A stretch of 64,000 nucleotides of DNA, taken from NCBI RefSeq assembly GCF_002742445.1, contig NZ_NJNQ01000002.1, positions 248,001 through 312,000 on the forward strand, given 5' to 3'. Below, piece by piece: positions 32,099 through 56,471 of this stretch. The stretch is from Bifidobacterium sp. N4G05 (GTDB lineage: Bacteria; Actinomycetota; Actinomycetes; Actinomycetales; Bifidobacteriaceae). A program made the translations under genes and the position numbers. Position 1 is the first letter of the stretch. Every line of letters begins with the position of its first letter. The notes beneath the pieces are model-generated. The model did not search any database, was not told the origin of the DNA, and was given only the letters and a program-made list of their open reading frames with translations.

Positions 32099-32149
32099 AA
32101 GAAGCCCGTTGATGTACGCATTCACGCACGTCAACGGGCTTCTTGTTTT
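32099..32149 (+). terminator. Terminator after ppa
   Basis: A 14-bp perfect stem (32099-32112 with 32131-32144) is followed by GTTTTT. Confidence 0.92.
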
Positions 32150-32164
32150 TGCATACCTTTCAAC

Positions 32165-32377
32165 GTCCGGATTTTCCCACCCACTGGAAGAATCACCCCA
32201 CAAACCAGCCCCTCAGCGGGCAAAAACCTCCACCCACTGGAACAATCACCCCAGCAAAAGCCATCTCAACGTCCCAAAAACTCCAGATACTGGAAGAAAA
32301 CGGACATAACCATACCCTCCAAGTGTCCGGATTCCTCCAGCGACTGGAAGAAACAGCCCGCAGGCGGGATACACTCA
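32165..32377 (+). repeat. Array of four 53-bp hairpin units (array 1)
   Basis: Four degenerate units, each with the core TCCA-NNNNN-TGGAA, have their TGG at 32185, 32238, 32291 and 32345: spacings 53, 53 and 54. Upstream of the core is GTCC(C/G)(A/G)AAA-like sequence, downstream AATCACCCC in two of the four. It fills most of the 505-base gap between ppa and mntP; the rest is the ppa terminator and the mntP promoter and leader. The period is not a multiple of three, arguing against coding. Confidence 0.85.
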
Positions 32378-35784: not shown

Positions 35785-35805
35785 TTCCGTATCGACCCTC
35801 CCAAT

Positions 35806-35858
35806 GGGGTGATTCTTCCACTCACTGGAATAATCATCCCGTAGATATGGCACCCGCT
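35806..35858 (+). repeat. Solitary 53-bp hairpin unit
   Basis: One unit of the same family as the arrays, with its TGG at 35826. Here the hairpin is long: 35807-35820 pairs with 35826-35840 at about 13 positions. It lies between nth and the binding-protein gene and overlaps the upstream part of the latter's promoter region. Confidence 0.7.
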
Positions 35859-53112: not shown

Positions 53113-53409
53113 TCACTCCTCCCCTAGAATGCGCGGCGCAACAAACATGCCGGCTTCAGAAACCGGGGCGCCCGCAGTTGCTTCTTCCTGAGTCAGCGGG
53201 GTTTCCGGCACATCCGGGCGCAGGTAGGCTTCCAGCGGAATCGGGTTTGCAGTCGGTTCCACATCGTCGGTAGCGACTTCCTGGACCTTGTTGATGGATT
53301 CTGCGATGACGTTCAGATCGCCCTGCAGACGGGTAATCTCCTCGTCAGTGAGTGCAATTCGGGCCAAATCGCCCAGATGCACGATTTCTTCTTTGGTGAA
53401 AGTAGGCAT
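53113..53409 (-). CDS. gatC: Asp/Glu-tRNA amidotransferase subunit C
   Basis: 98 residues. Small subunit that holds GatA and GatB together ([26 protein letters not shown] and the C-terminal [13 protein letters not shown]). First gene of the operon. The ATG has no clear ribosome-binding site; TAATGT ends 7 bases before it, so the operon mRNA may be leaderless. Confidence 0.96.
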
Positions 53410-53416
53410 GTCCCTA

Positions 53417-53422
53417 ACATTA
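53417..53422 (-). promoter_or_regulatory. -10 hexamer of a possible leaderless gatCAB promoter
   Basis: TAATGT on the minus strand ends 7 bases before the gatC ATG. Confidence 0.4.
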
Positions 53423-53522
53423 ACGCGTCTGTGTGACTAGCGCCCCACCCATTTCGCCTATCGCCCCAGCCTCACGCTCCAGCCGCACCAGCCCAGCCGG
53501 AACAGCCTCGCCGCACCAGCCG

Positions 53523-53591
53523 CCGCAGTCCAGCCAGACCAGTCGCCGCAGTCCAGCCGCACCAATCGCCGCAGTCCAGCCGGACCAGCCT
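53523..53591. repeat. Three tandem 23-bp repeats in a C-rich tract
   Basis: The unit CCGCAGTCCAGCC, then two variable bases, ACCA and a TCG-like end, occurs three times in a row. It lies in a 250-base tract (about 53440-53690) of CCAGC/CCACC-rich sequence with very few G-rich stretches on this strand. The 742 bases between gatC and the next gene hold this tract, array 2 and the DnaA-box cluster. Confidence 0.75.
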
Positions 53592-53688
53592 GGCCACACC
53601 AACCCAGCCCACCAGCCTCGCCGCAGCCACACTAGCCCAGCCCCACCAGCACACCGTCCCGCCAAAGTCTCACCAGAAGCACACCGCA

Positions 53689-53953
53689 GTCCCAAATCCC
53701 CCAGTCGCTGGAATAATCCACCCACAAACCAGCCACTCACAATCCCAAAACTTCCACCCACTGGAACAATCACCCCGCTGACAGGCCTCCAATCGTCCCG
53801 ATTCCTCCACCCACTGGAGAAATCACCCCGCTAGACGCCCCACAGGAGACCAAAATCCTCCACCCACTGGAGGAATCTACCCGCCGACAAGCCATTCACA
53901 GTCCTAAAACCTCCATCAACTGGAACAATTCGGACTCTAAGCAGTATCTCAAT
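53689..53953 (+). repeat. Array of five 53-bp hairpin units (array 2)
   Basis: The TGG of the core CTCCACCCACTGGAA lies at 53709, 53762, 53815, 53868 and 53921: four consecutive spacings of exactly 53. The upstream part of each unit is close to GTCCCAAAAT, the downstream part to AATCACCCCGC. Units are 60-80% alike, so this is not a CRISPR. It lies between divergent gatC and the AbiEi-like gene. Confidence 0.92.
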
Positions 53954-54136
53954 ACTCAAAATACCCAGTTAACAGAAGAAACAGCCTAAATTCATATGGA
54001 ATAAGGTGACATTAACCTTTATCTACAAAACAACCAACCAGTTATCCACAAAAATCGTAAGTTATCCACAGACACGCCCGAAACGGCATCCTTTATCCAC
54101 ATTTGTCAATCGCGCTTCCTTAGCAGTATCTCAATA
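53940..54136 (+). repeat. 15-bp direct repeats bracketing the DnaA-box region
   Basis: AGCAGTATCTCAATA occurs exactly at 53940-53954 and 54122-54136. The first copy begins inside the last 53-bp unit, the second lies just before the AbiEi-like gene. Confidence 0.9.
54019..54101 (+). other. Cluster of DnaA boxes upstream of the AbiEi-like gene
   Basis: Exact TTATCCACA at 54042-54050, 54062-54070 and 54093-54101, and TTATCTACA (one mismatch) at 54019-54027, all in the same orientation. Confidence 0.75.
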
Positions 54137-54151
54137 AGGTAGCGTCAAACC

Positions 54152-55108
54152 ATGAAAGCATATCCTCAAATCGATACGCTGCTCGATCAAGCAGAAAATG
54201 CGCGACGATGCGCACATAGCAGCGACCCTCTCATCCAGAAGGGCCTGTACCGCAGGTACCGCGCGGGCGATCTTGCGCGCCCATATCCGGGGCTCTTCAC
54301 CCGCGCCGAATATTGGCATCAGCTCAACGAGCCAGAGCAATCGTTACACATGGCCAGAGCCCTTAGGGATCTCCACCCCAACTGGGTTTTCTCAGGAATA
54401 ACAGCCGCCGCAGCCCATGGATTCGATCATCCGCGAATCTTGCACCGGCAAGGACTGACCATAACATTGCCCAGTCACGGATCATACCGACCGCACGAAA
54501 AACTCAATATCATATACAGTCCATGTCCCAGAGAAAAAGCGGTAATCGCAAATGGAATTGCCGTCACGAATCCCTCTCGTACGCTGCTAGATTGCGGACG
54601 CACGATAGATTTCGTCCATTCTCTACCGATTTTTGACGATGCAGCTTCGAATGGAATCGAAGAAAAGCAGATTTTGCAAGAATGTGCGCGCACGACTCTC
54701 GACTGCTCACGCATCTTCAAATTACTGAGATATACCGATGCGAGAAGCGAGAATGGCGGCGAATCTTTTGCTCGTGCGGTCATGATTGAAAATGGATTTT
54801 CGGTTCCCCAATTACAGGTTCCCTTTACTGATCCCCTTACAGGAAAACAGTTCAGGGTCGATTTTTTATGGCGCACAGCCGATGGACGAATCATTGTTGG
54901 GGAACTTGACGGCACCGCGAAATACGTTGATCCGCAAATGACCGATCGTAAGAGCATACAGGAAACCGTGCAGGCCGAGAGAGAACGCGAACAGGCGCTT
55001 TTTCGCGCAGGAGTTACGGAAATCGTCAGATTTACTTTTGACGATGCAGTCCGGCAAAAACCGCTGATTGCGAAACTGCGGCGCGCTGGGGTTCCTTGCG
55101 TTTCATAG
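54152..55108 (+). CDS. AbiEi-like protein with a C-terminal PD-(D/E)XK nuclease-like domain
   Basis: 318 residues. The N-terminal half resembles the AbiEi antitoxin-type proteins of actinobacteria: a small winged-helix region (KGLYRRYRAGDLARPYPGLF), VFSGITAAAAHGF and NPSRTLLDCGR. The C-terminal part has a DUF559/Vsr-like nuclease pattern with E204, D237 (RVDFLW), E251 and K258 (GELDGTAKY), the residues expected of an active site. No AbiEii-type nucleotidyltransferase lies beside it, so it is not a standard toxin-antitoxin pair. Codon use is more AT-rich than in neighbouring gat genes. It is flanked by inverted 53-bp repeat arrays; the right array starts at its stop codon. Start: ATG at 54152, TAAGGT 11 bases upstream. 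Confidence 0.75.
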   Translation: MKAYPQIDTLLDQAENARRCAHSSDPLIQKGLYRRYRAGDLARPYPGLFTRAEYWHQLNEPEQSLHMARALRDLHPNWVFSGITAAAAHGFDHPRILHRQGLTITLPSHGSYRPHEKLNIIYSPCPREKAVIANGIAVTNPSRTLLDCGRTIDFVHSLPIFDDAASNGIEEKQILQECARTTLDCSRIFKLLRYTDARSENGGESFARAVMIENGFSVPQLQVPFTDPLTGKQFRVDFLWRTADGRIIVGELDGTAKYVDPQMTDRKSIQETVQAEREREQALFRAGVTEIVRFTFDDAVRQKPLIAKLRRAGVPCVS

Positions 55109-55368
55109 GGTGATCTTCTGCGGGAAGATTCCTCCAGTAAGTGGAAAAGTCGGGACGCTGAGAAGTTCGCCACCGGGAAAATCCCTCCAGAGAGTGGAGA
55201 AATCTAGACTCTAGCAAGGCACTCAGCGGAAGGATTGTTCCAGTAGGTGGAGGATTTGGGTCTCTGGTGAGGCTTTCTGCAGGAAGATTCCTCCAATCGC
55301 TGGAGAAATTGGGACGTTGAGTAGTCTGCCAGCAGGAGGATTCCTCCAGTGACTGGAGGATTTGGAAC
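55109..55368 (-). repeat. Array of five 53-bp hairpin units, inverted (array 3)
   Basis: In the plus strand the CCA of the core lies at 55134, 55187, 55240, 55293 and 55346, again spaced exactly 53. Read on the minus strand each unit matches array 2 (for example TCCTCCAGTCACTGGAGGAA). It fills the 272 bases between the AbiEi-like gene and the converging methyltransferase gene almost completely. Confidence 0.92.
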
Positions 55369-55380
55369 GATAGGAGCCGG

Positions 55381-56331
55381 TCAGGACTGGGGTGCGGCGT
55401 GCTGGGCGATCCAGGCGTGCATGGAAACCGCGGCGGCAGCTCCGGCGTTAATGGAACGCACCGAACCGAATTGGGAAATGTAGACCACGTCATCCGCCAG
55501 CTCAAGTGCCTTTTCGGACAGTCCCGGACCTTCCGCACCAAACAACATAAGACATCGCTTCGGAAAGCGATATGTTTCCATCGGCACCGCACCCGGAATG
55601 ATGTCAAGCGCAATCACCCGCGCAGCCTTCAACTCGGCAATGCGCTGATCAATCGCTGCCAGCTGCGTCATATAGGACAGCTTGTTCCCATTTTCAGCGC
55701 CACATGCGGTTGAAGTATCCATTGAATTGCCAGCTGGAGCACACTCAGTAGCACGGCCCTCATTCAGCGAAGCAGCATCGTTCATACCGGTACCGTGCCC
55801 ACTTTTCGCGTTTTCGTGCATATGTAATGCGATTGCGGAGGCTTGCGATCGCGCCGCCGCGATTTCTCCGGCAATGCGCAGCTTCCAGCATTCGACCAGT
55901 TCGGTTATGGAAGGGTGGTTTTCGACGTGCTGGTACAGTTCCGTCATCAACGCGCCCTTGCGATTCCATTTATGCGGACCGACGATATGCACGCGTTTTG
56001 CCTGAAATGCGTTGGCAGTGCGCACCATCGATCCGATATTGAAATCGTGCGTCCAGTTTTCCACGGCAACCTCAAAATCATGGCGACCATGAGCGTCAAG
56101 ATCATCTTTGATGGCCGAAACCGTCCAGTAACGATACCGGTCAAGCACGTTGCGGCGATCACCCTCATCAAGCAGAGACGAATCGAATCGACGATCATAA
56201 TTCGGCGATTGCGGATCATCCGGACGGGGCTCGCCAAGATGCGCTTCAGCCCACGGACCTACGCCCACTTCACGAAAGACCGGCTCTCCGGATGCTTTCG
56301 CCGCAATATCGATGGGATTAGGCTGATGCAC
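55381..56331 (-). CDS. TrmH/SpoU-family RNA methyltransferase
   Basis: 316 residues from the GTG at 56331, chosen because GAGGAGG lies 6 bases upstream. The SPOUT knot motifs are NIGSMVRTANAFQ (motif 1), LMLFGAEGPGLSEKA (motif 2) and SVRSINAGAAAAVSMHAW (motif 3); they bind S-adenosylmethionine for 2'-O-ribose methylation of tRNA or rRNA. A non-conserved insertion rich in Ala, Gly and Ser (about residues 160-215) separates motifs 1 and 2. The target RNA is not known. Confidence 0.88.
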   Translation of the reverse strand: MHQPNPIDIAAKASGEPVFREVGVGPWAEAHLGEPRPDDPQSPNYDRRFDSSLLDEGDRRNVLDRYRYWTVSAIKDDLDAHGRHDFEVAVENWTHDFNIGSMVRTANAFQAKRVHIVGPHKWNRKGALMTELYQHVENHPSITELVECWKLRIAGEIAAARSQASAIALHMHENAKSGHGTGMNDAASLNEGRATECAPAGNSMDTSTACGAENGNKLSYMTQLAAIDQRIAELKAARVIALDIIPGAVPMETYRFPKRCLMLFGAEGPGLSEKALELADDVVYISQFGSVRSINAGAAAAVSMHAWIAQHAAPQS

Positions 56332-56471
56332 GCGATTCCTCCTCACAACTCATTAATTGATCCAACTAGACGCAAAGTCGTAAAACGTTCCGTGAAACAC
56401 GCTATTTAGCGTTACCGAACCACCAATGCAACCGAAAAGCTGCGACACTTCGATACTCAGTGTTGTGACAC

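Follow-up and report, generated by a model that had tools for sequence, protein, structure and literature searches.

The window analyzed here, a stretch of 64,000 nucleotides from the genome of Bifidobacterium sp. N4G05, contains arrays of 53-bp units belonging to a dispersed family of intergenic repeats, whose period is locked at 53 bp and whose palindromic core, TCCA-N5-TGGA, is under ongoing selection. The chances seem to us evenly balanced that the arrays are helically phased, double-stranded sites at which a putative dimeric protein binds cooperatively and thereby organizes or insulates DNA topology.

Two of the arrays flank a single AbiEi-like gene. Five units stand on its left, on the forward strand (53685–53949; starts at 53685, 53738, 53791, 53844, and 53897), and five on its right in the opposite orientation, on the reverse strand (55108–55372; starts at 55108, 55161, 55214, 55267, and 55320), and the step is exactly 53 bp throughout. 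A tandem-repeat search picked up the left array only; a repeat search combined with extraction gave all ten units, bearing out the number, the constant step, and the opposite polarity that a preliminary description of this DNA had claimed. The core positions named there coincide with TGGA in the cores of the left array and with CCA in those of the right one, and the GTCCCAAAT-like left half that it regarded as conserved was recovered in the extracted units. The core is complete in 9 of the 10 units, with CCCA in the first left unit. The pattern TCCANNNNNTGGA has 14 matches in the window versus 1.01 expected, and 14 were reached in 0 of 100 shuffles. The statement that the arrays bracket only the AbiEi-like gene holds for these two, but not for a third array of four units on the forward strand (32161–32373; steps of 53, 53, and 54), which is flanked by ppa and an mntP-like gene and begins directly past the ppa terminator, nor for a single unit at 35792–35854, which is nearly palindromic and hence scores on both strands. 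The 53-bp consensus drawn from 15 units of the window is CAnCGTCCCAAATCCTCCACCCACTGGAAGAATCnnCCCGCnGACnGnCnnCn. Units of the window arrays are mutually diverged at 23–39% of sites, while the core and the step are retained.

The locked period and the conserved core

In the N4G05 genome (G000; 2.07 Mb in 12 contigs), a symmetric weight matrix recognized 91 units in 21 clusters among the loci examined, which supports the earlier suggestion of a dispersed repeat family. When 150 of 748 candidates were scored against a covariance model of the unit, at least 141 matches were obtained at E ≤ 1, many of them being both strands of one near-palindromic unit; the model searches scored at most 150 candidates per genome (98 in one search), and unit counts are therefore lower bounds. 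The repeats are intergenic and scattered, with rRNA, tRNA, ppa, gatC, and varied other neighbors; Pfam matches back the assignments of ppa, gatC, and the SpoU methyltransferase, and the recG-, rpmB-, dapA-, and mscL-like neighbors were assigned by reading translations. Two cores separated by exactly 40 bases occur in 9 of the 112 genomes of the genus that were scanned, amounting to 129 pairs, versus 0 for the reversed control in 112 of 112. The pairs number 41 in G000, 32 in G099, 29 in G069, 13 in G024, 8 in G083, 2 each in G062 and G068, and 1 each in G075 and G102; the lone pair of G102 may be due to chance, given that this genome has no model match. Another genome, G012, has a few model matches and zero exact pairs.

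Among the 70 gaps shorter than 150 bp in the N4G05 genome, 59 measure 53 bp, five 54, four 52, and one each 51 and 62. When the two-core pattern was applied with other spacings to the 112 genomes, 5 pairs appeared at 22–51 bp (control, 3) and 6 at 55–84 bp (control, 7), the patterns of 22–84 bp excluding 52 and 54, which make up 9 of the 70 gaps mentioned above. Four of these 11 off-period pairs, at 51, 55, 62, and 62 bp, read as true units. In 27 pairs of orthologous arrays, restricted to reciprocal best matches with equal unit number, 788 substitutions and 16 indels were counted, as compared with 1302 and 73 in the 200-bp flanks, which is a deficit of indels in the arrays (odds ratio 0.36, p = 1.1 × 10⁻⁴); coding sequence possibly lies inside the flanks and should depress the flank indel rate. 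The period of the repeat family is locked at 53 bp. Free variation of the period, which the preliminary description had named as telling against its interpretation, is not what was found.

The core is constrained in a similar comparison of single units. In 86 orthologous unit pairs, limited to those with at most 10 differences, core positions 3–6 changed at 12 of 688 sites versus 240 of 3,870 elsewhere (p = 1.7 × 10⁻⁷), meaning that the core evolves 3.6 times more slowly than the remainder of the unit and is under ongoing selection. Information peaks at offsets 3–6 (TGGA), 9–11 (AAT), and 17 (C). The linker contains a second dyad, centered 26.5 bp from the core. Among 244 non-redundant units from 8 genomes, Watson–Crick pairing at symmetric positions does not exceed that of independent columns: the largest excess has a z score of 2.3, at ±17, and the scores at ±6 to ±12 range from −1.1 to 1.6 when the units are oriented by C content and from −2.7 to 0.9 when they are taken as found, whereas positions ±3 to ±5 hardly vary and carry no information on covariation. 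Because the arms do not covary, the best reading of the palindrome is a double-stranded dyad whose two half-sites are independent. The half-sites are of two types, with YCC or GGA at positions 14–16 (mutual information, 0.63 bits), and the unit met most often, in 119 of 393 cases, carries one of each type arranged as B-core-A (65 have the reverse order). GGA being the reverse complement of TCC, the half-sites alternate as if the 3-bp block at positions 14–16 were invertible. Along the unit, A/T content varies most strongly with the 10.6-bp harmonic (p = 0.026 by permutation), a feature that hints weakly at bent or wrapped DNA.

Position relative to genes and on the chromosome

Arrays often lie behind genes of stable RNAs. 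In the N4G05 genome, an array or unit stands 3′ of three tRNA loci and of three of the five 5S genes, at 51–420 bp, and the remaining two 5S genes have no array within the 2 kb examined; one of these arrays (L009) also precedes a tRNA, at a distance of 84 bp on its 5′ side. Clusters that follow a tRNA or 5S gene on its 3′ side by no more than 300 bp number 8 of 22 in G099 (7 of 21 without one that came to light through inspection of the DNA 3′ of 5S genes) and 4 of 18 in G069, as compared with 1 each on the 5′ side; 1.1–1.5 and 0.8–1.2 clusters, respectively, are expected 3′ if an intergenic share of 10–14% is assumed, the array positions being partly rounded. No array adjoins rRNA among the loci examined in G024. 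Intrinsic terminators within 150 bp are directed toward the array on 8 of 42 sides and away from it on 2 of 42 in the N4G05 genome, where shuffles expect 1.45, and across the 156 sides of five genomes the corresponding counts are 29 and 10. The terminator of ppa in the window (32099–32150, forward strand), which has a long stem and a T-run and was found by a script scan but missed by a scan restricted to short loops, and those of four G099 rRNA operons stand shortly before the first unit. In G099 (L090 and L091), three 5S genes are exactly 24,388 bp apart, two of them with identical array-bearing 3′ flanks, which would reflect either a tandem duplication with rRNA operons at its borders or an effect of assembly.

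The loci are also unevenly placed on the chromosome. The origin-proximal 60% of the half-chromosome contains 15 of 16 loci in G069, 17 of 18 in G099, 6 of 6 in G068 (four weak single-unit matches being left out), 6 of 7 in G024, and 9 of 10 in G083, with positions numbered from dnaA, which was recognized in the translations of G069, G099, G068, and G024 and was not visible for G083. Kolmogorov–Smirnov tests of origin proximity gave p = 0.021 for G069, 0.0032 for G099, and 0.0008 for G068; because many loci are orthologous between species, tests of chromosome position are not independent. At 52 of 54 loci in five genomes, the leading strand is the one on which the array is G-rich (Fisher p = 0.0014 in G069, 0.00016 in G099, 0.028 in G083, 0.33 in G068, and 0.048 in G024), a count that leaves out the mid-chromosome loci L060, L079, and L096 and two G062 loci and includes several skews near zero.

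The AbiEi-like locus and the turnover of arrays

The gene between the two arrays of the window (54152–55108, forward strand) lies outside the repeat and encodes a protein of 318 amino acids, whose similarity to AbiEi is weak (PADLOC, E = 9.8 × 10⁻⁵, 20 bits) and confined to residues 71–181. The protein has no match in Pfam or NCBIfam, and no abiEii toxin gene is adjacent; the neighbors, identified by Pfam, are gatC on the left (53113–53409, reverse strand), present at the site in 7 of 7 genomes checked, including that of N4G05, and a gene for a SpoU-family (trmH-like) methyltransferase on the right (55381–56346, reverse strand). At this gatC–trmH site, the AbiEi-like gene is found in G000, G069, G024, and G075 and is absent from G099, G083, and G068, an absence that holds for the site itself, the part of those genomes that was searched. 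The gene-less sites retain 2, 2, and 1 units, respectively, and in G083 the first left unit is followed by the last right unit in 53-bp register and then by the end of trmH. Since units are kept where the gene is missing, the gene comes or goes inside an array that is independent of it. The arrays bracket the gene in the N4G05 genome, G069, and G075, and a single array accompanies it in G024. The whole gatC–trmH gap of G068 measures 144 bp. Three perfect TTATCCACA sites, which resemble DnaA boxes and lie outside the repeat, are situated between the left array and the gene in the window (54042–54101, forward strand), and G069 has two such sites at the locus, G024 and G075 one apiece. A C-rich stretch between gatC and the left array (53467–53625) consists of imperfect 14-, 23-, and 37-bp tandem repeats that are CCAGCC-like.

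Many arrays occupy orthologous sites, at which their copy number differs in place, and units of both polarities exist within one array. Differences in length are often multiples of ~53 bp, such as 53 versus 265 bp or, for an array of G069, 105 versus 318 bp, between flanks that are 94–99% identical; two neighboring units of L002 are identical. At the recG-like/rpmB-like site of G068, the single unit matches the first unit of a five-unit array on its left side and the last one on its right side, and this hybrid points to loss through recombination between units. From such comparisons the arrays look old, inherited in place, and in the course of being lost in some lineages. An origin of the arrays in mobile DNA was considered and rejected: no plasmid matched them, and no entry of viral_contigs matched three exactly phased cores. 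MT837411 and MT837080 (L165 and L166), which are labeled Bacteriophage sp., carry arrays together with long stretches of Bifidobacterium chromosome; both these stretches and the ends with the arrays match Bifidobacterium loci at up to 99.6–99.9%, and the remainder is unmatched by the loci compared. A CRISPR array was considered and rejected, the repeats being diverged and the linkers having a shared consensus. So was a known Rfam family: at gathering scores the window yields only two tRNAs, outside the arrays, and the region 53400–55500 yields nothing at E 1. No description of the motif, or of intergenic or palindromic repeats in bifidobacteria or Kiritimatiellae, was found in the open PMC literature, subscription papers being mostly outside that scope, and the remark in the preliminary description that no described family with these properties was known is supported within the open literature searched and Rfam.

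Possible roles and comparison with known systems

The reading that we favor starts from a putative dimer that would bind each dyad-symmetric, double-stranded site. Steps of 53 bp, which amount to 5.05 turns at 10.5 bp per turn (the rare step of 62 bp makes 5.9), would put the bound dimers on one face of the helix, where they could bind cooperatively and bend or wrap the DNA. In the manner of BIME-2 or plasmid centromere arrays, the resulting nucleoprotein array might organize or insulate topology past terminators, chiefly in origin-proximal DNA, for instance by retaining supercoils or recruiting gyrase. The preliminary description had already proposed an array of sites for protein binding, spaced by about five turns of B-DNA and hence in helical phase, and the sequence comparisons support it as a prediction. 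The protein and its cooperative binding are what we infer from these features, and the topological role is suggested by analogy: we favor a role in topology or chromosome organization because gyrase of Escherichia coli is reported to have phased 10-bp G/C variation in its motif, to be enriched downstream of highly transcribed operons, and to have strong sites in BIME-2 arrays (PMC6379681).

A number of observations, however, weigh against the favored reading. Taken as a whole, the arrays accumulate substitutions much as their flanks do (788/6308 versus 1302/10341), and some diverge well beyond them (28% versus 5% between L004 and L076); arrays that diverge like flanks or faster imply that the constraint is limited to part of the unit. 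The test of phasing by A/T content is weak, and the step is 51–53 bp rather than strictly 53 in G062 and G075, where 52 even outnumbers 53 (6 of 9 gaps in G062 are 52; among 29 in G075, 52 occurs 13 times, 53 12 times, and 51 three times). The flanks of 16 of the 21 N4G05 clusters could be paired within 800 kb of G068, and by reading the sequences between them we classified G068 as having fewer units at 8 sites, none at 3, and similar numbers at 2, with 3 unclear. Arrays are also absent from the conserved TetR-garK site in both G099 and G068. The TetR protein, whose gene lies beside a widely shared array and which was considered as the binder, shows 94–95% identity both in the array-rich G099 and in G068 with its reduced arrays, and neither genome has the array beside its gene. 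Arrays that are absent or reduced at conserved sites are not essential. Regarding position, four arrays next to rRNA in G099 are paralogs with a common first unit and, together with the case found by inspecting the DNA 3′ of 5S genes, are not independent; the Kolmogorov–Smirnov test does not bear out origin proximity in G024 (p = 0.61) or G083 (p = 0.11), and G069, G099, and G083 each have a locus very close to mid-chromosome. The G/C polarity of the arrays may be functional or may be plain replication skew.

Some of these points would also suit a neutral minisatellite, in which duplication and slippage hold the step at 53 bp without any function. The change of copy number between species in steps of ~53 bp, the hybrid unit of G068, the identical neighbors in L002, and the divergence of whole arrays at the flank rate all agree with it, but units that differ by 23–39% nevertheless keep core and step, and both the constraint on the core (p = 1.7 × 10⁻⁷) and the deficit of indels (p = 1.1 × 10⁻⁴) make this explanation unlikely. 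We attach a similarly low likelihood to sites for segregation or nucleoid occlusion, that is, to a centromere-like or Noc/SlmA-like protein acting on the origin-proximal arrays. Their origin-proximal distribution, their replichore polarity, and their fixed-step tandem dyads, which recall the plasmid centromere sopC, suit such a function, while the mid-chromosome loci in three genomes, a number of clusters (~20) that exceeds the need of a centromere, and the loss of units in G068 do not.

Mobile palindromes of the REP/BIME type, in which hairpins are multiplied by a RAYT transposase and take on secondary roles, are very unlikely as the source of the family. The arrays are intergenic imperfect palindromes of mixed orientation, like the BIMEs described in PMC2817692, but the RAYT domain PF01797 (Y1_Tnp) occurs in 7 of the 112 genomes of the genus, not in that of N4G05, and among the nine carriers of 53-bp pairs only in G099 and G068, and many arrays are orthologous in place. 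A GTAG or CGTC tag was not seen in the unit consensus, although no dedicated scan for tags was made. Given the absence of RAYT in the N4G05 genome and the lack of arm covariation, we do not regard the arrays as members of REP/BIME. The independence of the arms also speaks against a function in RNA, with transcribed hairpins serving for processing, stability, or attenuation or as small RNA, and the RNA-hairpin sites entertained in the preliminary description find no support in the 244 units compared. A stem of 5–8 pairs can form in many units, arrays are often 3′ of genes, and two units score as terminator-like on the minus strand in pattern scans, but the visible terminators directed toward arrays all precede them, and 53400–55500 has no Rfam match at E 1; we therefore hold an RNA role to be hardly probable. 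Least probable of all is that the arrays serve the AbiEi-like protein as its substrate or as a region for its attachment or control. The gene is bracketed in three genomes and its product has some similarity to AbiEi, but the other clusters adjoin unrelated genes, an observation that the preliminary description itself had named as decisive against its proposal of a nuclease substrate or attachment region. With three relatives keeping units without the gene and a single array beside it in G024, the link to the nuclease fails.

Beyond the phased protein-binding sites that we favor, it is possible, though doubtful in our estimation, that the arrays represent a new element of chromosome architecture, consisting of period-locked dyad arrays and a putative protein, often past terminators and origin-proximal, with the core and phasing seen in Kiritimatiellae and Opitutia having arisen either independently or by descent. 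Proteins acting at special sites are thought to shape bacterial chromosomes, and to our knowledge few of them are known in bifidobacteria. A sequence that drifts while its core and helical phase are held would be a ready bait for finding the putative protein, and the species with many, few, or no units provide a natural series for testing the role of the arrays.

When one genome each of 84,980 species, possibly not including that of N4G05, was scanned for three cores at 53 bp, 24 stretches were obtained, 9 in B. kashiwanohense and 15 elsewhere. Thirteen of the 15 (L028–L034, L039, L041, L042, L044, L047, and L049) come from metagenome-assembled genomes (MAGs) of Kiritimatiellae, Opitutia, and Verrucomicrobia with TTCCA-N5-TGGAA palindromes, and the Pirellulaceae and deltaproteobacterial matches are near-identical tandem repeats. 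Four such MAGs hold 302, 310, 1673, and 1091 TTCCA-N5-TGGAA sites versus 0, 2, 3, and 3 for the control, and among the sites listed for two of them, 50 of 302 and 25 of 310, the steps are mainly 31 and 22. Their palindromes are like the bifidobacterial ones in the TCCA-N5-TGGA core and in helically phased steps (22 and 31, with sums of 53 and 62), and unlike them in occurring in other phyla, with other flanks, and in hundreds to more than 1000 copies. Because 53 in the MAGs is mostly 22 + 31 and these arrays surfaced in a search for the Bifidobacterium core and step, common descent does not follow from the likeness. Opitutus terrae is reported to be rich in GTAG repeats (PMC3733652), which are a different motif.

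Among described systems, the arrays resemble BIME-2/REP elements in being intergenic tandem imperfect palindromes of mixed orientation and varying copy number, with a possible role in topology near the ends of transcription units (PMC6379681 and PMC2817692). They differ from these elements in the lock at 53 bp, in the lack of a RAYT in the N4G05 genome and of arm covariation, and in the core TCCA-N5-TGGA. In the F plasmid, sopC is a centromere array of 43-bp repeats, each with an inverted repeat; the fixed-step tandem dyads on double-stranded DNA and the dimeric protein, putative in our case, are alike, whereas the bifidobacterial arrays form ~20 scattered chromosomal clusters and their partner protein is a predicted one. 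The sites of Noc, SlmA, and matS are likewise palindromic and unevenly distributed along the origin–terminus axis, but they are single and dispersed rather than helically phased arrays, and their sequence is not known to be related. The MIRU/VNTR loci of mycobacteria share with the arrays an actinobacterial host, short intergenic tandem repeats, and a copy number that depends on the locus, and differ from them in that the units described here are strongly diverged with core and step conserved. If the favored reading is true, phased dyad arrays, which are known from plasmid centromeres and BIMEs, may perhaps be a wider feature of chromosomes.

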